This document shows, in pieces, positions 20,938 to 62,450 of a stretch of 64,000 nucleotides of DNA. Source of the stretch: Prevotella sp. (lineage in GTDB: Bacteria > Bacteroidota > Bacteroidia > Bacteroidales > Bacteroidaceae); assembly GCA_017548275.1 (NCBI GenBank), contig JAFZAH010000036.1, positions 62,001 to 126,000 on the forward strand, written 5' to 3'. Both the position numbers and the translations under genes were made by a program. Positions within the stretch are counted from its first letter, which is position 1; each line of letters opens with the position of its first letter. The notes beneath the pieces were generated by a model, which was given only the letters and a program-made list of their open reading frames with translations, made no database searches and was not told where the DNA came from.

Positions 20938-21120
20938 GCCTCACCCCCAACCCGGCCTCACCCCCAACCCCTCTCCAAAGGGCGAGGGGAGTAGATAGCC
21001 CAATAATGGAGCAGTATTGTCTGAACTCCTGAACTTCTGAACTTCTGAACTCCTAAGTATTGGCTTTAACTTCCTTAACTTCTTTAACTTCTTTAACTTC
21101 CACTTCAAAACTCCTTCCCC
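20938..21120. repeat. Family A repeat plus TTCTTTAAC / CTTCTGAAC phrases
   Basis: 20938-20999 carries one and a half family A copies. 21015-21055 is four CTGAACTTCTGAACTTC units, and 21065-21105 is four TTAACTTCTTTAACTTC units. The TTAACTTC phrase recurs near 23165 and, inverted, near 54240. Confidence 0.8.
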
Positions 21121-27252: not shown

Positions 27253-28779
27253 ATGAACATTATCATATCTGTCATCTGCCTGATTCTCGGAGTCGTCATC
27301 GGCTATCTGGCAGCCCACAGCAAGAACGCCAGTCTCACCACACAGACGAAAATGCAACAAGAGCGCATCGATGCCATGCGGCAAAGGATGCAAGAGCGCG
27401 ACGACAGCATCAGCGGCCTGACACAGGAGCGCACCACTCTGCTTGCCCGGCGCGATGTGCTCGAATCGCAAGTGCAAACACTCACAGGCGACATCGAGGA
27501 GCAAAAACAACTCTTCGACGACCAACTGTCACGGCTCAAAGAGCAGATGCAACAGGCGGAACGGCGCTATGAGGAGCAGTTGCAGCAGACCGAGCAGCGA
27601 TACAACAACCTGATGCAGAAAGCCGAGGAACGGCAGAAGGAGTCAGAGCAACGGCAAGCCACGCTCATACGCGAGCAAATCAACTCCGCGTCGGAATCCA
27701 TCCTCAAAAAACGCGCTGAAGAACTGTCGGCCAACAACCAAGAGCAGATGGCCACCATCCTCACTCCCCTGCAAGAGCACCTCAAGCAGATGCGCGAGGC
27801 CGTGGAGCGCAGCGACCGCGAGCACACCACGAGCATGGAGCGCCTCGACGCCTCTATCAAGGCCAACCTCAAACAAGCGAAAGAGGTGGGCGAAAGAGCC
27901 GACAAACTGGCACAGGCACTCATGAGCGAGAACAAGACACAAGGCAACTTCGGCGAACTGCGCCTGCGCACCATCCTCGAGAGCATGGGATTGGAAGAGG
28001 GCGTGCAGTTTGAGGAGCAGACCACACTGCGCGACGACAAGGGGCAGGCCATCGTCGGCGAGGACGGCGGGCAGCGCATGGTGCCCGACATCGTCCTCCA
28101 CTTCCCCGACGAGCGCGACGTGATTATCGACTCGAAGATGTCGCTCAAAGCCTTCGAGGAGTATTTCAACACCGAGACCGAGAGTGCGAAGGAGGATGCG
28201 CTCAAACGCCATGTGGCTTCGGTGCGCGCCCACGTGAAGGAACTGGCGCATAAGAAATACAACCGCTACGTGCGGCAGGGCCACGGCCGGCTCGACTTCG
28301 TGGTCATGTACGTTTATAGCGAAAGTGCACTGCAACTGGCGCTTACCAATGAACCCACGCTCTGGAACGAGGCCTATGAGCAGGGGGTGGTCATCTCTGG
28401 CAGCCAAAACCTCTACATGATGTTGCGTGTGCTCGAAATGACATGGCGGCAGGTGCGACAGGCGGAAAACCAAGAGGAAATCATGAACACCGCCAACGAA
28501 CTGGTCAACCGTGTGCAACAGTTCTACGAACGGTTTATCGCCGTCGATGAGCAACTGACGAAGACCCGCAACGCATTCGACCAACTGAAAAACACCACCT
28601 CACCTTCAGGTCAGGGCATCATCACCTCCGCCAACAAACTGCTGAAATTCGGCGCACAGGAAAACCCCAAGCGCAAAATGCGGTTGCCAAGAATTGAAGA
28701 GGAAAAAGACATAAAAAGCCTCACCCCCGACCCCTCTCCAAAGGGCGAGGGGAGTGATTACCTCAGAGGTGAGAGGTGA
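27253..28779 (+). CDS. rmuC: DNA recombination protein RmuC homologue
   Basis: RmuC limits recombination between inverted repeats in E. coli and has a nuclease-like core. The start MNIIISVICLILGVV gives a single N-terminal membrane anchor (residues 1-22), followed by a long coiled coil to about 180 (MQQERIDAMRQRMQERDDS onward) and the RmuC domain. Family motifs include QGNFGELRLRTILESMGLEEG near 240 and RDVIIDSKMSLKAFEEYF near 295, where the ID-x-K pair recalls a restriction-nuclease core. The last 20 or so residues (from SLTPDPSPKGEG to the stop) are translated family A repeat and are not part of the family. An upstream in-frame extension from 27184 was rejected because it spans the promoter. 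Confidence 0.94.
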   Translation: MNIIISVICLILGVVIGYLAAHSKNASLTTQTKMQQERIDAMRQRMQERDDSISGLTQERTTLLARRDVLESQVQTLTGDIEEQKQLFDDQLSRLKEQMQQAERRYEEQLQQTEQRYNNLMQKAEERQKESEQRQATLIREQINSASESILKKRAEELSANNQEQMATILTPLQEHLKQMREAVERSDREHTTSMERLDASIKANLKQAKEVGERADKLAQALMSENKTQGNFGELRLRTILESMGLEEGVQFEEQTTLRDDKGQAIVGEDGGQRMVPDIVLHFPDERDVIIDSKMSLKAFEEYFNTETESAKEDALKRHVASVRAHVKELAHKKYNRYVRQGHGRLDFVVMYVYSESALQLALTNEPTLWNEAYEQGVVISGSQNLYMMLRVLEMTWRQVRQAENQEEIMNTANELVNRVQQFYERFIAVDEQLTKTRNAFDQLKNTTSPSGQGIITSANKLLKFGAQENPKRKMRLPRIEEEKDIKSLTPDPSPKGEGSDYLRGER

Positions 28780-33732: not shown

Positions 33733-34060
33733 CTCACCCCCGACCCGGCCTCACCCCCGACCCCTCAACAAAAAAAGCCTCACCCCCACCCCCTCTCCGA
33801 CAGGAGAGGGGAGTGATTACCTCAGAGGTAAGTGGTAAGAGGTTGGAGGTGAAAGATCACCTTGGCATTGACGTTAAGGTCCTTAAGGTCTTTAAAGTCC
33901 TTAACGGCTTTAAGGAGCAAGGAGCAAGGGGCAAGAGATTACCATTAAGAGGTGAGAGGTTGGAGGTGAGAGGTAAGAGATTACTCCACTAATCACTCCC
34001 TCCCCTCGGGGAGGGACGGGGAGGGGGCTAATTCTCCTAGGAGGGTTGGGGAGGGGGCTT
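33733..34060. repeat. Dense cluster of dispersed repeats
   Basis: Contains three partial family A copies (33733-33825), GGTAAGAGGTTGGAGGTGA phrases on both sides, AAGGTCCTTAAGGTC phrases (33865-33905), an AAGGAGCAAGGAGCAAGGG phrase (33912-33935) and two family B copies (33985-34060). No ORF in this stretch has coding character. Confidence 0.8.
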
Positions 34061-35188: not shown

Positions 35189-35232
35189 GCCTCACCCCCA
35201 ACCCCTCTCCAAAGGGAGAGGGGAGTAGATAG
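35188..35232 (+). repeat. Family A repeat between etfB and the DUF559 gene
   Basis: GGCCTCACCCCCAACCCCTC, then a CTCTCCAAAGGGAGAG hairpin and GGGGAGTAGATAG, beginning at the etfB stop codon. Confidence 0.8.
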
Positions 35233-35651: not shown

Positions 35652-36743
35652 ATGAATACACAAGACAACAAGCAAAACACGGGAGTATCCACTCCCCTCT
35701 CCCCTCGGAGAGGGGCCGGGGGTGAGGCCGTTTTTGTATATTGTGAAATCGAAGGCACTCTGGTACAGGAAGTATCTCAAGAGTTGCTGACCAAAGGCCG
35801 CAAATTGGCCAACGAACTGGGCGTTGAACTGCATGCCGTGGTTATCGGAACAGACATCAAAGACAAGGTGGAAGAGCAGATTCTTCCCTACGGCGTGGAT
35901 AAACTGTTCGTGTTCGACGCACCCGAACTGTTCCCCTACACCTCCGCACCCCACACCGACATCATGGTGAACCTCTTCAAGGAGGAGAAACCGCAAATCT
36001 GCCTTATGGGCGCAACCGTCATCGGACGCGACCTCGGACCCCGCGTGTCATCGTCGCTCACCAGCGGACTGACCGCCGACTGCACCCAACTGGAAATCGG
36101 CTCCTACGAGGACAAGAAAAACAACAAGGTGTATAACAACCTGCTCTACCAGATACGTCCCGCTTTCGGCGGTAACATCGTGGCGACCATCGTCAACCCC
36201 GACCACCGTCCGCAGATGGCTACCGTGCGCTCAGGCGTCATGCAGAAAGCCGTTTACGAGGGCGACTGCCGCAAAGAGGTGGTTTATCCCGAGGTGGGTA
36301 AATACGTCGGTCCCGAGGCTTTCGTGGTAAAGGTGCTCGACCACCATGTCGAGGCAGCCAAGCACAATCTGAAGGGTGCTCCCATCGTGGTGGCCGGCGG
36401 CTACGGCATGGGCTCGAAAGAGGGTTTCGACATGCTATTCGACCTGGCGAAGGTGCTCCACGGCGAGGTGGGCGGCTCACGCGCAGCCGTCGATGCAGGT
36501 TTCTGCGACCATGACCGTCAGATAGGTCAGACAGGTGTGACCGTGCACCCGAAGGTGTACATCGCCTGCGGCATCAGCGGCCAGATTCAGCACATCGCCG
36601 GCATGCAAGACTCCGGCATCATCATCAGCATCAACTCCGACCCCGACGCTCCCATCAACCGCATCGCCGACTACGTCATCGTCGGCACCGTGGAAGAGGT
36701 CGTCCCGAAATTGATTAAGTATTATAAGCAGAATTCGAAGTAA
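35652..36743 (+). CDS. etfA: Electron transfer flavoprotein alpha subunit
   Basis: EtfA binds the FAD through which electrons leave the flavoprotein. The 363-residue protein begins seven bases after the DUF559 stop. The usual family start VFVYCEIEGTLVQEVSQELL appears only from residue 27; before it, residues 13-26 (STPLSPRRGAGGEA) are a translated family A repeat. The FAD domain is intact: ADYVIVG near the end, GQTGVTVHPKVYIACGISG near 295-313 and QHIAGMQDSGIIISINSD near 317-334, with VVAGGYGMGSKEGF near 245. The reading frame stays open through the insertion, so the protein is probably made with an extra N-terminal segment, or starts at a non-ATG codon beyond it. Confidence 0.94.
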   Translation: MNTQDNKQNTGVSTPLSPRRGAGGEAVFVYCEIEGTLVQEVSQELLTKGRKLANELGVELHAVVIGTDIKDKVEEQILPYGVDKLFVFDAPELFPYTSAPHTDIMVNLFKEEKPQICLMGATVIGRDLGPRVSSSLTSGLTADCTQLEIGSYEDKKNNKVYNNLLYQIRPAFGGNIVATIVNPDHRPQMATVRSGVMQKAVYEGDCRKEVVYPEVGKYVGPEAFVVKVLDHHVEAAKHNLKGAPIVVAGGYGMGSKEGFDMLFDLAKVLHGEVGGSRAAVDAGFCDHDRQIGQTGVTVHPKVYIACGISGQIQHIAGMQDSGIIISINSDPDAPINRIADYVIVGTVEEVVPKLIKYYKQNSK

Positions 36744-45892: not shown

Positions 45893-45960
45893 CCCCCAAC
45901 CTCTCCAGCCTCACCCCCAACTCCTCTCCCGTCGGAGAGAGGAGTTGGGGGTGAGGCTCT
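45893..45960. repeat. Family A repeat pair forming a long hairpin
   Basis: GCCTCACCCCCAACTCCTCT then GTCGG then GAGAGAGGAGTTGGGGGTGA: arms of about 22 bases pair almost perfectly. A partial additional copy precedes. It lies after the stop codon of the 44771 gene and may stop transcription, though no T-run follows. Confidence 0.8.
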
Positions 45961-55590: not shown

Positions 55591-56894
55591 CAACGGCACA
55601 ATAATTCGCAAATCTTATTCTGGAACTCGCGCCCGTCGGACGATTTCGCCACACCTTGGTTGATGATGGCGAACACGATTTTATGTCCGTTCGACGCGGT
55701 GAGGTAGCCGGCGAGTGAACTCACACCAGTGACCGTGCCGGTCTTGGCATGCACATTACCCTCGGCGCGGGTGCCTTTCATGCGGCTTTTCAGCGTGCCG
55801 TCAACACCTGCGATAGGAAGCACGGGGTAGAGATGGGAATAGATTTCAGGTTTCTCGGCGGCATAGCGCAACAGCCGCACCAGCAGTTCGGGGGTAACAT
55901 AGTCGTAAGGCGACAGTCCGCAACCGTCGGCGAACGAATAACGCTCGGAAGGCAGACCCAACCGGCCCACAAGACGTTTCATGGCATTGGCGGCTTTCTT
56001 GGCGGTGCCGGGCTTTCCCTCTCCGGCGGCTATCTGGTAAAAGACAGACTCGGCATAGAGGTTATTACTGTCTTTCATCATCTTTTGCAGCACAGTATCA
56101 AACGAGGTGCGGTGCACGGCTATCTGTGTCACGCCCTGCGGTGTGCGCCCTTCGGTCACGCTGCCGGTGATGACGATATCGCGCTGACGCAGCAACTGAA
56201 ACAGCCGCTCTGCGAAATTGTCTTTTCTGTCAACAAGCAGTGCGGAGAGTTTGGGATTGTCATCGTCCCAACTCCATCCCGACCCGGTCAGGATATCGTC
56301 TTTCATGCTCTTATCGGCCACTATATTACCCTCAATGCGCCTAATGCCTGCAGAGCGCACGGCATTGGCGAAATCAGTCAGGTCGTCGGCCGAGAAGGTC
56401 GGGTCCATCGTTCCCGCACAATAGATGTTGCCGCGGAGCACGCCCTCGTCATCGACCTGACCCTTGTAATAGAGGTAGGTGCGGAACTGATAATTTCCGC
56501 CCAACATATCGAGTCCGGTGATGGAGGTGACCAGTTTCATGGTCGAGGCGGGACGCATACGGTGATGGTCATTGTGGCGGTAAACCACCTTCTGGTCAGT
56601 CATGTCATACACCAACAGTCCCAACTGCGTGGTTTTCAGCAGTTCGCTCTGCATCATGCGGTCCAGACCGTTGCTCACACGCCGAGCCCAGTCCGACGAT
56701 GACATCACCATGTCATTATCGGTGTTGAAATTGTCGTTTCCCGTCACGACCGGCTGGTCGATGACTTCCACCTGCGATTCATACGGACCGTAATCATTGG
56801 TGTATCGGTCCAGTTCTTCCTCAGTCAGTTGTGCGTTTGCAGGCATGACGGCCAACATCAGTGCCGCTGCCGTATATATCCATTTATTTTTCAT
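55590..56894 (-). CDS. dacB: D-alanyl-D-alanine carboxypeptidase/endopeptidase (PBP4-like, S13)
   Basis: DacB trims or opens peptidoglycan cross-links in the periplasm. The 434-residue protein has a signal peptide (MKNKWIYTAAALMLAVMPANA). Penicillin-binding motifs are intact: PASTMKLVT near 117-125 (SxxK), SNN near 276-278 (SxN) and HAKTGT near 384-389 (KTG). The S13-family insert between the first two motifs is present but short (GNIYCAGTMDPTFSADDL). An acidic N-terminal region (EEELDRYTNDYGPYESQV) precedes the catalytic domain. It is followed by mscS through a TGATG overlap, an arrangement that couples wall turnover with an osmotic safety valve. Confidence 0.94.
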   Translation of the reverse strand: MKNKWIYTAAALMLAVMPANAQLTEEELDRYTNDYGPYESQVEVIDQPVVTGNDNFNTDNDMVMSSSDWARRVSNGLDRMMQSELLKTTQLGLLVYDMTDQKVVYRHNDHHRMRPASTMKLVTSITGLDMLGGNYQFRTYLYYKGQVDDEGVLRGNIYCAGTMDPTFSADDLTDFANAVRSAGIRRIEGNIVADKSMKDDILTGSGWSWDDDNPKLSALLVDRKDNFAERLFQLLRQRDIVITGSVTEGRTPQGVTQIAVHRTSFDTVLQKMMKDSNNLYAESVFYQIAAGEGKPGTAKKAANAMKRLVGRLGLPSERYSFADGCGLSPYDYVTPELLVRLLRYAAEKPEIYSHLYPVLPIAGVDGTLKSRMKGTRAEGNVHAKTGTVTGVSSLAGYLTASNGHKIVFAIINQGVAKSSDGREFQNKICELLCR

Positions 56895-56923
56895 ATCTTT
56901 TTTGTCTATATTACCTGTTCTAC

Positions 56924-57012
56924 GGCGCCCCGAAGGGGCAACCTACTCATAGCCCAAGGCAACGCCTTGGGTTAATCGGGAAACAAGGCGTGCGCCCTGA
57001 AAGGGCAAAAGC
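56924..57012. repeat. REP-type palindromes, left of the transposase gene
   Basis: Three short palindromes in a row: GCCCCGAAGGGGC (56927-56939), CCCAAGGCAACGCCTTGGG (56953-56971) and GCCCTGAAAGGGC (56994-57006). The pattern GCCC-stem / CCCAAGGC-stem / GCCC-stem recurs right of the gene in the opposite sense and twice near 60388-60573. Confidence 0.85.
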
Positions 57013-57013
57013 C

Positions 57014-57469
57014 TCAGTCGGACAACACATATCTTTCGTCATAATCAATATTATATAACTTCAAAAATTGCAAATACTCGTCATGGAACGACACATTCTT
57101 ATGATGCTCATGTTGATTGTTCACGTATGCCACGGTTTTATCTACTACCGACTGGCTGACGGAAAATGCGGCATAACCGCCTTGCCATGCGAAATGCTCA
57201 TATTGCGGAGATATTGTCTTGAGCCATCTGCTACTGTTGCGTTTCATTTCCTCCACTAGATGTGACACTGTTTCATTTCTCGACAATAAACACACTACAT
57301 GGACATGATCGCCAATGCCGCCAACCCTGACAACTTGGCATCCCGTAGCATTGACCAACTGGCCGATATAGTTATGAACACGTTCCAAATGTTCGTCGGC
57401 TATCCTCGGGCTGGTTGTCTTGATGTGGAACACCACATGAAGGTATATCTTGCAAAGAGATTGAGCCAT
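57014..57469 (-). mobile_element. REP-associated tyrosine transposase (RAYT, IS200-like, TnpA_REP)
   Basis: A 151-residue HUH-family single-strand transposase. The start is LCKIYLHVVFHIKTTSPRI; the HUH motif is GDHVHVVCLLSRNE near 53-66 (His-x-His); the catalytic tyrosine is probably in KTVAYVNNQHEHH near 115-127; WQGGYAAFSVS near 96-106 is a family block. It lacks any accessory gene, typical of RAYTs, which are domesticated relatives of IS200/IS605. Tripartite palindromes flank the gene on both sides in inverted orientation. In other bacteria RAYTs bind and cleave REP palindromes; here the matching palindromes are present in the same 4 kb. Whether the enzyme is active is unknown, but the motifs look intact. 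Confidence 0.88.
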
Positions 57470-57483
57470 CGATTCTTATGCTT

Positions 57484-57568
57484 TTGCCCTTTCAGGGCGT
57501 TTTTTGATTGGCACTATACTCCCCAGGGCGTTGCCCTGGGCTATGAGCAGATTGCCCTTTCAGGGCGT
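57484..57568. repeat. REP-type palindromes, right of the transposase gene
   Basis: GCCCTTTCAGGGC (57486-57498), CCCAGGGCGTTGCCCTGGG (57522-57540) and GCCCTTTCAGGGC (57554-57566). Same three-part order as at 56924 but inverted, so the gene sits between two head-to-head elements. The rest of 57470-57770 holds no gene; it contains CTCCATACTT duplicated phrases and the nadB promoter. Confidence 0.85.
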
Positions 57569-57727
57569 TAGGGAAATCTCCATACTTTCTGAAAGTCTCC
57601 ATACTTACACAGAGATTGCATGTGACTACGGACATGCTCTCCGCTTTTAAGAGATGCAAAAATATAAAAAATAGGCCGAAACACAAAAAATATCCCCATC
57701 ATTTTAGTATTTCCCATTTTTATTAAC

Positions 57728-57735
57728 TACTTTTG
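57728..57735 (+). promoter_or_regulatory. -7 promoter element for nadB
   Basis: TACTTTTG followed by C, about 36 bases before the nadB ATG. The leader contains the CCTCAAACCTCAAACC phrase (57753-57768) just ahead of the start codon. The -33 box is weak. Confidence 0.6.
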
Positions 57736-57770
57736 CAACATCATCAAAACCTCAAACCTCAAACCAAGAT

Positions 57771-59357
57771 ATGATTTACAAATACGATTTTCTCGTCATC
57801 GGCGCAGGTGTTGCCGGCATGAGTTATGCGCTGAAAGTGGCGCGTGCCAAGAAAGGCAAGGTTTGTCTCATCTGTAAAACCACACTCGAAGAGGCCAACA
57901 CCTCTTTCGCACAGGGTGGCGTGGCGTCGGTCACCAATCTCGCCGTAGATGATTTCGACAAGCATATCGAGGACACCATGATCGCGGGCGACTACATCAG
58001 CGACCGCGCCGCCGTGGAGCAAGTGGTGCGCAATGCACCCGAGCAGGTCATGGAATTGGTCAAATGGGGTGTCAATTTCGACCGTAATGAGAACGGCGAT
58101 TTCGACCTCCACCGCGAGGGAGGGCACTCCGAGTTCCGCATCCTCCACCATGCCGACGACACGGGAGCCGAGATACAACGCGGACTGATGGCTGCCGTGC
58201 GTGCATGCCCCGACATCATCGTCAAAGAAAATCACTTCGCCGTGGAAATCATCACACAGCACCATCTGGGCGCCCGCGTGACACGACGCACCCCCTACAT
58301 CAACTGCTATGGCGCATACGTGCTCAACCCCGACACGCAGAAGGTGGACACCTATCTCAGCAAAGTGACGCTGATGTGTACCGGCGGTTGCGGGGCGGTC
58401 TATCAGACGACTTCTAACCCCGTCATCGCCACGGGCGACGGCATCGCCATGGTCTATCGTGCGAAAGGAACGGTGGCCGACATGGAGTTCGTGCAGTTCC
58501 ACCCCACGGTGCTCCACTCCCCCACTGAGACTCATCCCGCTTTCCTCATCACCGAGGCCATGCGCGGATACGGTGGCATACTACGTCTGCCCAACGGCGA
58601 GTCGTTTATGGAGAAATACGACGAGCGGCTGTCGCTCGCACCGCGCGATATCGTGGCACGCGCCATCGACAAGGAGATGAAGATTCACGGCATCGACCAT
58701 GTGTGCCTCGATGTCACCCATAAGGACGCGGAGGAGACAAAACACCACTTCCCCAACATCTACCAGAAATGCAAATCGATGGGTATCGACATCACCACCG
58801 ACTACATCCCCGTGCGGCCCGCGGCCCACTATATGTGCGGCGGCATCAAGGTGGATTTGAACGGCTGTTCAAGCATCGACCGCCTCTATGCCATCGGTGA
58901 ATGCTCCTGCACAGGTCTGCATGGCGGCAACCGATTGGCCAGCAACTCGCTCATCGAGGCGGTGGTCTATGCCGACAAAGCCGCCAAGCACTCGCTCGAG
59001 CATTTCGAACTCTACGACTTCAACGACAAGGTGCCTGAGTGGAACGACGAGGGCACGATGTCGAACGAGGAGCAGGTACTCATCACGCAGAGTGTGAAAG
59101 AGGTGGGAGAAATCATGTCGAACTACGTGGGCATCGTACGTTCCGACCTGCGTCTGAAACGCGCCTGGGACCGTCTCGACATGTTGTACGAGGAAACGGA
59201 AAACCTCTTCAAGCGCGTCAAGGCAAGCAAGGATATCTGCGAACTGCGCAACATGATCAACGTGGGCTATCTTATCACCCGTATGGCCATCGAGCGCAAA
59301 GAGTGCCGCGGCCTCCACTTCACCATCGACTACCCCGTACACGCATACGACAAGTAG
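57771..59357 (+). CDS. nadB: L-aspartate oxidase
   Basis: NadB oxidises L-aspartate to iminoaspartate, the first step of de novo NAD synthesis; FAD is the cofactor. The 528-residue protein has the dinucleotide motif DFLVIGAGVAGMSYAL near 6-21, then AQGGVASVTN near 48-57, HREGGHSEFRILHHADDTG near 111-129 (active site His/Arg), QFHPTVLH and RGYGGILR near 245-270, and HYMCGGIKV near 350 followed by ECSCTGLHGGNRLASNSLIE. The Cys-rich ECSC is usual in this family. The helical C-terminus is complete. nadA and nadC are not in the window, so the pathway is completed elsewhere. NadB is related to fumarate reductase, but NadB motifs dominate. Confidence 0.93.
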   Translation: MIYKYDFLVIGAGVAGMSYALKVARAKKGKVCLICKTTLEEANTSFAQGGVASVTNLAVDDFDKHIEDTMIAGDYISDRAAVEQVVRNAPEQVMELVKWGVNFDRNENGDFDLHREGGHSEFRILHHADDTGAEIQRGLMAAVRACPDIIVKENHFAVEIITQHHLGARVTRRTPYINCYGAYVLNPDTQKVDTYLSKVTLMCTGGCGAVYQTTSNPVIATGDGIAMVYRAKGTVADMEFVQFHPTVLHSPTETHPAFLITEAMRGYGGILRLPNGESFMEKYDERLSLAPRDIVARAIDKEMKIHGIDHVCLDVTHKDAEETKHHFPNIYQKCKSMGIDITTDYIPVRPAAHYMCGGIKVDLNGCSSIDRLYAIGECSCTGLHGGNRLASNSLIEAVVYADKAAKHSLEHFELYDFNDKVPEWNDEGTMSNEEQVLITQSVKEVGEIMSNYVGIVRSDLRLKRAWDRLDMLYEETENLFKRVKASKDICELRNMINVGYLITRMAIERKECRGLHFTIDYPVHAYDK

Positions 59358-59362
59358 CGTTC

Positions 59363-59451
59363 AGGGGCAAGGAGCAAGGAGCAGGGGGCAAGAGATTAGT
59401 TCTCCATTCGTGGAGTATTCTCTTGCCCCCTGCTCCTTGCTCCTTGCCCCT
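59363..59451. terminator. 33-bp perfect inverted repeat between convergent nadB and an esterase gene
   Basis: Arms at 59363-59395 and 59419-59451 are exact complements over 33 bases with a 23-base loop, built from GGGGCAAGGAGCAAGGAGC phrases seen singly at 28910 and 33915. As it lies between convergent genes it could stop both transcripts, but there is no T-run. Confidence 0.75.
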
Positions 59452-59457
59452 AATTAC

Positions 59458-60264
59458 TTACTTATACGCGTTCTTCAAATCTTCCTTTGTGATGCTGATG
59501 GTTTTGTTCACGGGGCGGCCGGAGTCAGCCAGGGAGTGTGAGAAGAGCCAGTCGTAGGTCTTCTGTAGGTAGAACATACGCGCCAATGCGCCATGCGACG
59601 AGCCGGCAAACCAATCATACCGCAAACGGCTGTCAACATGGGCGGCTTTCATGCCGTTCACCACTTTTTTCGACTCATTCACCGATACGGCCTTGTCGGC
59701 GGTGCCGTGGATAATCCACAGCGGAGCATCGCCCATCTTAGTGTAGTCGCGCAGGGTGCTGCCGCCGCAAAGCGCCATCGCCGCTGCCACACGTTCGGGA
59801 TAGGTGCCCACATAGTCGAGGGTGCCGTATCCGCCCAGACTCATGCCCAGCACATAAATACGCTCGGGGTCGGCGGCGCAGTTGTCCATCACCCAGTCGA
59901 GCACATCATTCAGTTTCTTCGGGTCCCATGCCCCGCCGGGATTCTGCGGTGCCACAATCAGAGCCGGTATGTTCATGCCCCTCTCGATGGCGTCGAGGGT
60001 GCCATAGCGGAGCACACGTTTCATGTCGCGACCGCACAGCGAACGGCCATGCAAAAACAATATCACGGGATAATAATGCTCGTCCTCGAAACCCTCCGTC
60101 TGCCAGACGGCCTCATAACCTTTTGGAACGCACATCCAAAACGGATAGCCGCCCTTGATTTCGCTCCGCAACACCGACATATTTTTCGTCTGTGCCGACA
60201 AGTTGCCCGACCCGAAAACAAGCGCCACGCAAGCGATGAAAATACTGATAAATAGATGTTTCAT
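59458..60264 (-). CDS. Secreted alpha/beta-hydrolase (esterase, PHB-depolymerase/CE1-like)
   Basis: A 268-residue serine esterase with signal peptide (KHLFISIFIACVALVFGSG). Fold motifs: YYPVILFLHGRSLCGRDMKR near 63-82 (oxyanion hole), MNIPALIVAPQNPGGAWDPK near 97-116, the nucleophile elbow VLGMSLGGYG near 141-150 (Ser), and a likely catalytic Asp in IHGTADKAVSVNES and His in SSHGALAR. This layout matches feruloyl/xylan esterases and related phospholipase-like enzymes of Bacteroidota. Substrate is unknown; together with the pectinesterase at 7856 it might point to plant polysaccharide use, though the two are far apart. Confidence 0.88.
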   Translation of the reverse strand: MKHLFISIFIACVALVFGSGNLSAQTKNMSVLRSEIKGGYPFWMCVPKGYEAVWQTEGFEDEHYYPVILFLHGRSLCGRDMKRVLRYGTLDAIERGMNIPALIVAPQNPGGAWDPKKLNDVLDWVMDNCAADPERIYVLGMSLGGYGTLDYVGTYPERVAAAMALCGGSTLRDYTKMGDAPLWIIHGTADKAVSVNESKKVVNGMKAAHVDSRLRYDWFAGSSHGALARMFYLQKTYDWLFSHSLADSGRPVNKTISITKEDLKNAYK

Positions 60265-60387
60265 GGTGCAAAATTACCACAGTCACGACGAAACCCCAAT
60301 TGTTTTTTGTTTTTTTATCTTTTATTGGAAAAACTAAATGAACCGGTAAAAACAAGATTTCTTTTTATTTGTGTCCGGTAAAAAGCA

Positions 60388-60573
60388 GCCTGCAGGGCCA
60401 AACTGCACATAGCCCAGGGCAGCGCCCTGGGGATAGACGTTTGTGTAGCCTTCGCCCTGCAAGGGCAAAAGCATTGATTGTCAACTGCTTTTGCCCTTAC
60501 AGGGCGAAGATTTTCTTACAACGATTTACCCAAGGCGTTGCCTTGGGCTGTGTGCTCGTTGCCCTTCCGGGGC
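60388..60573. repeat. Two head-to-head tripartite REP elements
   Basis: First element: GCCTGCAGGGC (60388-60398), CCCAGGGCAGCGCCCTGGG (60413-60431), GCCCTGCAAGGGC (60454-60466). Second: GCCCTTACAGGGC (60493-60505), CCCAAGGCGTTGCCTTGGG (60529-60547), GCCCTTCCGGGGC (60561-60573). The inner ends (GGGCAAAAGCA / TGCTTTTGCCC) also pair. Same family as the palindromes flanking the transposase gene 3 kb away. Confidence 0.88.
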
Positions 60574-60686
60574 GAAGACAAGTCGAGCGCAACCAACTCC
60601 GACATAGCAGAAATTGGTAGAGAGCACCAGATATTAGTGTAGGAAAAACTTTTTCTTCATCATCGGACATTCTTTCGGTAAATAAA

Positions 60687-60718
60687 TTTGGTTATTCATT
60701 CTCTTTGCACTACCTTTG
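60687..60718 (+). promoter_or_regulatory. Promoter of the histidine-degradation genes
   Basis: TTTG at 60687-60690 and TACCTTTG at 60711-60718 with 20 bases between. The ftcD ATG follows 29 bases later. No operator-like dyad was recognised. Confidence 0.8.
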
Positions 60719-60746
60719 CCACAGATATAACCTTAAACACTTACTT

Positions 60747-62450
60747 ATGAACAACGACAAGAGAATCGTGGAATGCGTCCCCAATTTCAGCGAGGGACGC
60801 GACATGAACGTTATCCGGCAAATTACTGACGCTGTGGAAAGCGTGGAGGGAGTGAAACTGCTCAATGTGGACCCGGGCGAGGCAACCAACCGCACGGTGG
60901 TGACCTTCGTAGGCGCACCCGAGGCGGTCTGCGAGGCTGCTTTCCGCGCCGTGGGCAAGGCGGGCGAGGTCATCGACATGCGCCGCCATCACGGAGCACA
61001 CCCCCGCATGGGAGCCACCGACGTGCTGCCCCTCATACCCGTGAGCGGCATCACCCTGGAGGAATGCGCCGCACTGGCACGCAAACTGGCCGAGCGCATC
61101 GCCGCAGAGCATCGCATCCCCTGTTACTGCTATGAGGCATCGGCATTCAAACCTGAGCGAAAAAACCTCGCCGTTTGCCGCGCAGGAGAATACGAGGCAC
61201 TGCCCGAGAAACTGGCCAACCCTGACAAGGCGCCCGACTTCGGCGCACGTCCCTATGACGAGGGGGTGGCCCGCACGGGTTGCACCGTGGTGGGCGCACG
61301 CGACTTCCTCATCGCCGTCAACTACAATCTCAACACCACCTCAACCCGCCGCGCCAACGCCATCGCCTTTGACGTGCGCGAGAAAGGCCGTCCCAAACGC
61401 GAGGGCAACCCCATCACCGGCAAACCGATGAAGGATGCCGACGGCAAGACCATCATGATACCCGGCACGCTGAAAGCCACCAAAGCCATCGGATGGTACA
61501 TCGACGAATATGGCATCGCGCAAGTATCGATGAACATCACCGACATCAACGTGACACCGCTGCACAAGGCCTTCGACGAGGTGTGCCGCTGTGCGCAAAA
61601 CCGTGGCATACGCGTCACGGGAACCGAGATTGTGGGACTGATACCCAAGCGCACGCTCATCGAGGCCGGCCGCTATTTCCTCGAGAAACAACACCGCTCA
61701 ACGGGTATCCCGGAAGAAGATATCATCAACATCGCCATACACTCCATGGGACTCTCCGACCTGCGCCCCTTCAATCCGCGCGAGAAGGTCATCGAGTTCC
61801 TCATGGAAGACGACAAGAAGGCCGACCGGCTGGTGGACCTGACTGTCAAGGGGTTCGCCGAGGAGACCTCGCGCGAGTCGCCCGCTCCCGGCGGTGGCAC
61901 CATCTCGGCTTATATGGGTGCATTGGGCGCCGCTCTGGGCACGATGGTGGCCAACCTCTCCAGTCACAAGGCGGGATGGGATGACCGTTGGGCCGACTTC
62001 AGCCGATATGCCGACCGCGGACAAGCCATCATGACCCGTCTGTTGGAACTGGTGGACGAGGACACGCAAGCCTTCAACCGCATCATGGCCGCCTTCGGGC
62101 TACCGAAAGTCACCGAGGCCGACAAAGCTGCCCGCAGCGAAGCCATCCAAGCCGCCACGCTCTATGCCACGGAGGTGCCGCTGCAGACGATGAAAGCCTC
62201 GTACGAGGTGTTTGACCTCTGCCGTGCCATGGTCGAGGAGGGCAACCCCAACAGCCTGTCCGACGCAGGGGTGGGCGCACTGGCTGCACGAGCCGCAGTT
62301 CTCGGAGCCGGCATGAACGTGAAAATCAATGCCGCCTCGCTTAAAGACCGTGTCAAGGCCGAAGCACTCATCGCTGAAGCCGAAGCACTCATTGCCCAAG
62401 CCAACGCCGCCGAGCACGACATCACCGAAAAAGTTTTTGCAAAGTTATAA
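60747..62450 (+). CDS. ftcD: Glutamate formimidoyltransferase fused to formimidotetrahydrofolate cyclodeaminase
   Basis: The fused enzyme moves the formimino group from formiminoglutamate (from histidine breakdown) to tetrahydrofolate and then releases ammonia to give methenyl-THF. The start MNNDKRIVECVPNFSEGRDM was chosen over a frame to 60705, which includes the promoter. The N-terminal transferase has DVLPLIPVSGITLEECAALA near 92-111 and the active-site His in RRHHGAHPRMGATD near 79-92. The C-terminal cyclodeaminase (from about 365) has ESPAPGGGTISAYMGALGAA near 375-394 and an ALAARAAVLGAGMNVKINAA end. The fusion is also known in animals. It precedes hutU and would be part of a hut-type operon. 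Confidence 0.95.
   Translation: MNNDKRIVECVPNFSEGRDMNVIRQITDAVESVEGVKLLNVDPGEATNRTVVTFVGAPEAVCEAAFRAVGKAGEVIDMRRHHGAHPRMGATDVLPLIPVSGITLEECAALARKLAERIAAEHRIPCYCYEASAFKPERKNLAVCRAGEYEALPEKLANPDKAPDFGARPYDEGVARTGCTVVGARDFLIAVNYNLNTTSTRRANAIAFDVREKGRPKREGNPITGKPMKDADGKTIMIPGTLKATKAIGWYIDEYGIAQVSMNITDINVTPLHKAFDEVCRCAQNRGIRVTGTEIVGLIPKRTLIEAGRYFLEKQHRSTGIPEEDIINIAIHSMGLSDLRPFNPREKVIEFLMEDDKKADRLVDLTVKGFAEETSRESPAPGGGTISAYMGALGAALGTMVANLSSHKAGWDDRWADFSRYADRGQAIMTRLLELVDEDTQAFNRIMAAFGLPKVTEADKAARSEAIQAATLYATEVPLQTMKASYEVFDLCRAMVEEGNPNSLSDAGVGALAARAAVLGAGMNVKINAASLKDRVKAEALIAEAEALIAQANAAEHDITEKVFAKL

Follow-up and report, generated by a model that had tools for sequence, protein, structure and literature searches.

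A subclass 1.2 type Y1 transposase of Prevotella and a three-stem repeat as its probable partner

Subclass 1.2 of the TnpA-Y1 transposases was named in the survey of Quentin et al. 2018 (PMC6006769), whose Table 1 characterizes it by the motifs DH[IV]H, WQ and YxxxQxxHH, a length of about 150 aa, a low copy number, and an occurrence in Bacteroidetes and Cyanobacteria. In the parts of the survey that deal with this subclass, REP is listed as 'no', and its genes are described as generally lacking typical terminal structures; for subclass 2.6 of Bacteroidetes, the same parts mention 'atypical secondary structures' and a different Y motif. No prior report of repeats for subclass 1.2 was found in the literature searched, which lies mostly outside subscription journals. 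The repeats of the REP enzymes treated in PMC8266576 carry a GTAG, which is indispensable in E. coli and matters less in two others, according to the passages that address this point. PINSR, an intergenic repeat of the Prevotella intermedia group, is described in the relevant section of PMC4755523 as 188 bp long, present in 177-184 copies, and devoid of terminal inverted repeats.

In the window (the whole 64,000-nt stretch of Prevotella sp. DNA analyzed here), a Y1 HUH transposase gene of the subclass 1.2 type occupies positions 57014..57469 of the minus strand and encodes 151 aa, with no internal stop. It is bracketed by two three-stem units, both matched by a covariance model: a type B unit on the left (56921..57015, minus strand; C36:118921-119015), with the central palindrome CCCAAGGC, and a type A unit on the right (57477..57572, plus strand; C36:119477-119572), with the central palindrome CCCAGGGC. 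The stems of the left unit lie at 56927-56939 (outer), 56953-56971 (central), and 56994-57006 (inner), and those of the right unit at 57486-57498 (inner), 57522-57540 (central), and 57554-57566 (outer). The two sets are inverted copies of each other, with 46-nt arms that are 87% complementary and 25-nt arms that are 92% complementary, and their central stems differ by a compensated change. The description of an intact HUH transposase between two inverted three-stem sets, given in the initial annotation, is confirmed together with its coordinates by the open reading frame (ORF), the PF01797 match, the hairpins, and the complementary arms.

A gene-less inverted pair at 60381-60579, 2.8 kb from the gene element, had been overlooked. 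It comprises a left unit of type A (60381..60475, minus strand; C36:122381-122475) and a right unit of type B (60484..60579, plus strand; C36:122484-122579), with 8 nt between the two matches; like the gene element, it is made of one type A half and one type B half. An end resembling a terminal inverted repeat, with one mismatch to TTGGTGTCCGSTWAAA, adjoins it (60368..60383, plus strand; C36:122368-122383), and no matching end was found among the TTGGTGTCCGSTWAAA matches on the other side of the pair, nor was a terminal repeat seen by eye at the gene-bearing copy of the window. At up to two mismatches, the window matches the 13-nt GCCC hairpin 8 times, one palindrome being counted on both strands, against 1.66 expected, and none of 100 shuffles reaches 8. 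Folded as single-stranded DNA, all four sets of the window beat their shuffles (z -2.9 to -3.6). An Rfam search of positions 56800-60800 gave no match. The neighbors of the gene, which we presume from their sequences to be dacB-like and nadB-like, have no other tnpB-sized ORF between them in the ORF list of the window.

The unit consists of a hairpin P, a central palindrome C, and a second hairpin P, with the consensus GCTTTTGCCCTTnCAGGGC, 20-27 nt, CCCAGGGCnnnGCCCTGGG, about 11 nt, and TTGCCCTTTCAGGGC. Aligned as half-units, it reads GCTTTT-GCCCTTnCAGGGC, 20-27 variable nt, CCCAGGGCnnnGCCCTGGG, a link of about 11 nt, and TTGCCCTTTCAGGGC. Pairing is kept in 98.4% of the 378 cells of this alignment, and changes on both sides occur in 18 cells (outer stem, 14; central stem, 4), against 6.6 in shuffles, the 21 half-units from six genomes having been chosen by the unit pattern itself, which favors the structure; the inner stem is invariant and, hence, uninformative on pairing. 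The columns before the inner hairpin, GCTT-T, are invariant in the 21 aligned units, from which the GTAG or CGTC foot of known REPs is absent. The spacer between paired unit matches measures 7-20 nt in 21 covariance-model pairs, being 8 nt in the own genome and most commonly 19 nt in the genomes G045 and G042, and larger spacers also exist (L248). Long ORFs contain 25 of the 107 units, versus 63% of the bases in the same loci. Inverted units, a short spacer, and mainly intergenic dispersal, by which a REPIN is recognized, are all found here.

The 151-aa protein matches the Y1_Tnp model PF01797 with 74.3 bits (cut-off 23) and the NCBIfam model of the IS200/IS605 family with 49.6 bits, under the curated cut-off of 55; the NCBIfam REP_Tyr_transpos model does not report it at E 0.001. 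Its motifs are DHVH (aa 54-57), WQ (95-96), the catalytic Y115, Q119, and HH (122-123), and both HUH histidines, W95, Y115, Q119, H122, and H123 are among the residues invariant across 13 aligned sequences. The best PDB matches to its AlphaFold model (pLDDT 87, pTM 0.74) are ISDra2 TnpA (E 3.7e-8) and IS608 TnpA, the REP transposase complex 4er8 being matched more weakly (E 4.3e-5), with TM-scores of about 0.6 for the matches of the model. Because of the kept catalytic residues and these fold matches, the enzyme probably acts on hairpins of single-stranded DNA. The protein can be filed under TnpA-Y1 subclass 1.2 (class 1, the IS200 side) only on the basis of its motifs, length, and phylum: the motifs DH[IV]H, WQ, and YxxxQxxHH are all present, and it resembles the subclass, as presented in the parts of PMC6006769 cited above, in these motifs, its length of about 150 aa, its low copy number, and its origin in Bacteroidota.

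The initial annotation had labeled the enzyme a RAYT, which is apt in so far as it designates an HUH transposase with cognate-like repeats; a class-2 RAYT is ruled out by the Y motif YVNNQHEHH, which fits YxxxQxxHH in place of the absent YxxNP, and by the failure of the REP_Tyr_transpos model. That model is passed by a different Y1 protein of G028, whose class-2 type gene is flanked by a different repeat with CGGGCGCACACGGAGGTACGCCCC (L114, G028:C6), neither a P nor a C palindrome of the three-stem unit being found in that locus. Other Y1 proteins of G028, G009, G033, and G034 are of other types (judged by eye for G033 and G034), that of G009 scoring below the cut-off of the REP-associated transposase model; G014 also has a PF01797 match.

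Known IS200/IS605 elements carry one hairpin near each end. The present enzyme is akin to those of ISDra2 and IS608 in fold and catalytic residues, but its element differs from theirs by three palindromes per end, a single gene copy, and the lack of an adjoining tnpB-sized ORF. Instead of the multi-copy, near-identical insertion sequences with hairpin ends that define subclass 1.1, one PF01797 gene is found in the whole own genome (3.22 Mb, 56 contigs, 87% complete).

Exact copies of the central palindrome number 17 in this genome, and three further places have one mismatch; the reversed pattern, used as a control, gives 0 exact matches, and 3 at up to two mismatches, which equals the number of two-mismatch places found. 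The 20 palindrome places correspond to the gene element, eight complete gene-less pairs (one in the window and seven elsewhere), and two degraded single copies, and the covariance model yields at least 26 matches, including the sequences used to build it. The genome-wide census proposed in the initial annotation reveals a unit repeated as inverted pairs. A census of the exact GCCC-loop hairpin returns 3 matches in the own genome, all at the gene, because the loop varies, which is why the central palindrome and the covariance model were used instead.

Within the genus, a protein search finds homologues in 14 of 60 genomes, with at least 43% identity in nine, which are termed gene-bearing here, the 51 others being termed gene-lacking. 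The exact central palindrome is present in 18/60 genomes (reversed-pattern control, 0 in 60/60), and units are detected by the covariance model, whose counts per genome are lower bounds, in at least 22/60. The highest palindrome counts are those of G042 (77) and G045 (72), the latter a genome in a single contig; of 40 G045 loci read, 32 contain an inverted pair. At least two palindromes are present in 8/9 gene-bearing versus 8/51 gene-lacking genomes (Fisher P 3.9e-5, with the gene's own two sets counted and with species that are not independent). A stricter comparison, requiring at least four palindromes in gene-bearing (7/9) and at least two in gene-lacking genomes (8/51), gives P 4.5e-4, and P 1.4e-3 once the own genome is left out (6/8 versus 8/51), the same non-independence applying; this weakens P and keeps the direction, so that our weighting of the explanations was left unchanged. 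Co-occurrence of gene and unit is clear, though not strict.

Copies beyond the gene's own two sets exist in seven of the nine gene-bearing genomes. The two others are G006, with only the gene's own two palindromes, and G025, whose gene is the most distant of the nine and which has 0 exact palindromes and at least 4 units by the covariance model. Ten gene-lacking genomes contain the exact palindrome, in 37, 19, 19, 10, 9, 4, 4, 3, 1, and 1 copies; the genome with 37 is a draft of 92% completeness, and one of those with 19 is 99% complete. A profile search at E up to 0.1 finds no gene in nine of these ten, and the tenth, G051, combines one palindrome with a 32% homologue. The initial annotation expected the unit to be present elsewhere in the genome, as it is, and not to be frequent in relatives without the gene, an expectation partly at odds with the 8/51 gene-lacking genomes that have at least two palindromes, and up to 37.

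Complete units flank the gene on both sides in 6 of the 13 other genus loci examined, which come from four genomes, and L059 has a complete unit on one side and a partial set on the other. At the contig-end loci L061, L064, L066, L074, and L082, flank readings are dependable for one side only; L061 shows a central palindrome pair about 140-280 nt beyond one gene end, and no set within 260 nt of the other side. Of four named-record genomes, Bacteroides xylanisolvens XB1A yielded three places in the pattern search, including one at the gene, and the three others yielded none. Some loci display particular arrangements. In G059:C9 (L063/L079), the homologous gene is split over two frames, and in G042:C11 (L075/L081), there is a second, internally shortened gene copy, both still being bracketed by unit sets. 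Two gene elements with equal match scores and very similar flanks lie 2 kb apart in G045 (L156, G045:C1:3304000-3309000), the first within CTGAAG-type ends and the second with such an end on one side only. Distant homologues (26-35%; L066-L070, L076, L078) have, by eye, their own, different palindrome arrays beside the gene.

The insertion site can be compared between relatives. Among 18 relatives read, dacB and nadB are still neighbors in seven, where the stretch between them is estimated at -34 to 607 bp and contains no P-type hairpin; in the window, it measures 876 bp and contains four. In the 11 others, dacB does not occur within 1.5 kb. Conversely, among 31 loci with close homologues of the transposase, a dacB-like gene is near one and nadB near none, within the flanks examined. 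The gene element was, therefore, gained at the dacB-nadB site, or moved.

The inverted flanks accompany the gene well beyond the genus. When 84,980 species genomes were scanned with a single conserved peptide pattern of the alignment as the seed, at least 590 matches resulted, of which the best 80 were studied. These best 80 come from Bacteroidota and from records labeled Verrucomicrobia, Planctomycetes, Fibrobacteria, Pyrinomonadaceae, and others; metagenome bins account for many of them, and named strains include Haloferula and Verrucomicrobium. All 80 have the HUH motif, 77 have YxxxQxxHH, and none has YxxNP. Their 350-nt flanks are inverted copies (score of at least 30) in 71/80, versus 12 of 1685 control placings, the remaining nine of these best 80 being below the threshold. 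Likewise, 44 of the best 80 have at least two GC-rich hairpins in the 160 nt on each side (8/1685 controls), and 12 have at least three (0/1685 controls), the control placings overlapping within the same loci and, thus, not being independent. A control with mismatched pairs of flanks was dropped, since palindromes are common to different loci. Flank similarity tracks protein similarity, with a Spearman coefficient of 0.416, versus a permutation maximum of 0.137 and 0.072 for flanks 600 nt away. Inverted flanks are, then, found in most relatives, and the strict three-stem form in a minority. The finding is genuine, and it reaches further than the window alone could have shown to the initial annotation. 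From its 'Bacteroidota-type REPIN system with three-part unit', the three-stem units arranged as REPIN-like inverted pairs are retained, and the confinement to Bacteroidota and the class-2 RAYT are abandoned, relatives existing also in records labeled Verrucomicrobia, Planctomycetes, and others.

In three respects, these data depart from subclass 1.2 as published in the parts of PMC6006769 that describe it: inverted repeats flank the gene in most of the best 80 of at least 590 relatives, two or more strict hairpins lie on both sides in more than half of them, some genomes holding up to 77 palindromes, and relatives occur in phyla besides Bacteroidetes and Cyanobacteria. The resemblance to RAYT/TnpA-REP systems with their REPINs lies in a low-copy HUH transposase accompanied by palindromes, intergenic inverted pairs, and flanks that change with the enzyme; the differences are a class-1 motif instead of YxxNP, the foot GCTTTT instead of GTAG, three palindromes per unit, and REPINs that lie in part within MITE ends with target duplications. 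To PINSR, as described in the section of PMC4755523 cited above, the repeat can be likened, by description only, as an intergenic repeat of similar length in the same bacterial family.

The reading we favor, with a moderate degree of confidence, is that of a REPtron-like system, in which a low-copy subclass 1.2 Y1 transposase is associated with a cognate three-stem repeat, and whose REPINs also ride in MITEs. The hairpin sets are probably the cognate repeats of the enzyme, and the gene-less inverted pairs would be REPIN-like, non-autonomous derivatives; the whole would work like a RAYT-REPIN pair without being a class-2 RAYT. The enzyme would act on the three-stem repeat by binding the P hairpins on single-stranded DNA, together with their 5' foot GCTTTT, Tyr115 would nick beside these hairpins, and the segment between two opposed units might be excised or copied. 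Gene-bearing and gene-less forms could then spread by this Y1-driven movement, mainly to intergenic sites. As a second layer, which the sequences indicate, a DDE transposase appears to have multiplied the REPINs as MITE cargo.

This second layer is visible around the gene-less pairs, which are often enclosed by terminal inverted repeats of short length. The own genome has TTGGTGTCCGSTAAAA at these ends, G045 and G042 have CTGAASTTTCGCA among others, and G059 has ATGATTATCCGCA. Target duplications of 7-9 bp surround part of the pairs. Among the 23 pairs with both ends, 13 are edged by direct repeats of 6 bp or longer, where shuffled partners predict 0.31, and 11 by repeats of 7 bp or longer (0.10 expected); the four G059 pairs with ATGATTATCCGC have no direct repeats at their edges, and, among the three own-genome pairs with both ends, a duplication is present at L025 (9 bp, perfect) and absent from L019 and L021. 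In a second test, which covered 53 pairs of seven further genomes, direct repeats of at least 8 nt were present in 8 of the 23 pairs with terminal repeats by score (1.1 expected) and in 5 of the 30 pairs without (1.3 expected), two of these five (L136, L253) having weak terminal repeats after all. Target duplication is not known from HUH Y1 transposases, and part of the spread of the gene-less pairs is, therefore, due to DDE-type transposition. The gene-less copies in question are MITE-like by their ends and duplications, and unlike MITEs in that their REPIN-like core also exists around the Y1 gene and in places that lack such ends. Either the Y1 enzyme or hitch-hiking in MITEs may have produced most of the present copies.

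The own-genome terminal repeat TTGGTGTCCGSTWAAA has 44 matches at up to two mismatches (control, 9) and also occurs without the unit, its family having several short MITE-like interiors, for example, of about 120 bp in L032. No autonomous insertion sequence with this terminal repeat was recognized in the loci examined. An IS30-family transposase gene (L037 1559-2518, G000:C42; NCBIfam 252.8 bits) seems, by eye, to interrupt the left terminal repeat of a MITE-REPIN copy.

Taken further, the duplications could mean that the gene-less pairs are only MITE cargo of DDE transposases, the Y1 enzyme being irrelevant to their present distribution. This explanation, which we consider unlikely, would account for the 13/23 pairs with direct repeats, for the terminal repeats of at least five kinds (by eye) around the same core, for the own-genome end found on at least one side of 8/8 complete gene-less pairs, and for the gene-lacking genomes with many units. 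Nevertheless, a core found in several terminal-repeat contexts must have moved between them; more than half of the 53 paired units of the second test have no terminal repeat by score, gene-bearing loci are seldom inverted past the outer hairpin (7/78; control, 9/2224), and gene and unit co-occur.

The locus might also be an ordinary IS200-type insertion sequence, with hairpin ends, internally deleted copies, and no domesticated repeat system. One gene copy facing eight gene-less pairs in the own genome, three stems per end rather than one subterminal hairpin, the lack of another tnpB-sized ORF between dacB and nadB, and the scarcity of matches on plasmids (6/72556 records) and phages (1/50697 records) make this improbable, even though the protein is of the class-1 type, the gene stands at differing places in relatives (dacB homologue near 1/31, nadB near 0/31), two equal-score copies lie close together in G045, and the second copy in G042 is internally shortened. 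It is more improbable still, to the point of being hardly credible, that the palindromes are transcription terminators or mRNA-stabilizing stems that flank the gene by chance: GC-rich stems lying mostly outside long ORFs would suit such a role, but the stem order and inverted orientation are kept on both sides of the gene in many species, and the unit has spread to many places as pairs.

Starting again from the REPtron-like system, a broader proposal can be put forward more tentatively, at a little under even chances: the whole of subclass 1.2 may constitute a second, independent domesticated branch of Y1 enzymes, in which class-1 enzymes keep three-stem REPINs in Bacteroidota and several other phyla, these REPINs having repeatedly been packed into DDE-type MITE ends, with two unrelated transposases multiplying one repeat. 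What is new is a probable repeat partner for a subclass previously recorded without one. If the hairpin sets are the substrate of subclass 1.2, a RAYT-like domestication would have occurred on the IS200 side too, and the enzyme-repeat pair would be testable with defined oligonucleotides. Whether another transposase can sustain REPINs could be examined in those gene-lacking genomes that hold many units.

The window also holds a second dispersed hairpin family, CCCCTCTCCnnnnGGAGAGGGG, which lies outside the three-stem unit and counts 8 matches at up to two mismatches (0 expected), at 22-43, 1811-1832, 20968-20989, 28731-28752, 33790-33811, 35202-35223, 35694-35715, and 45921-45942. Similar stretches are seen by eye in other loci of the own genome.
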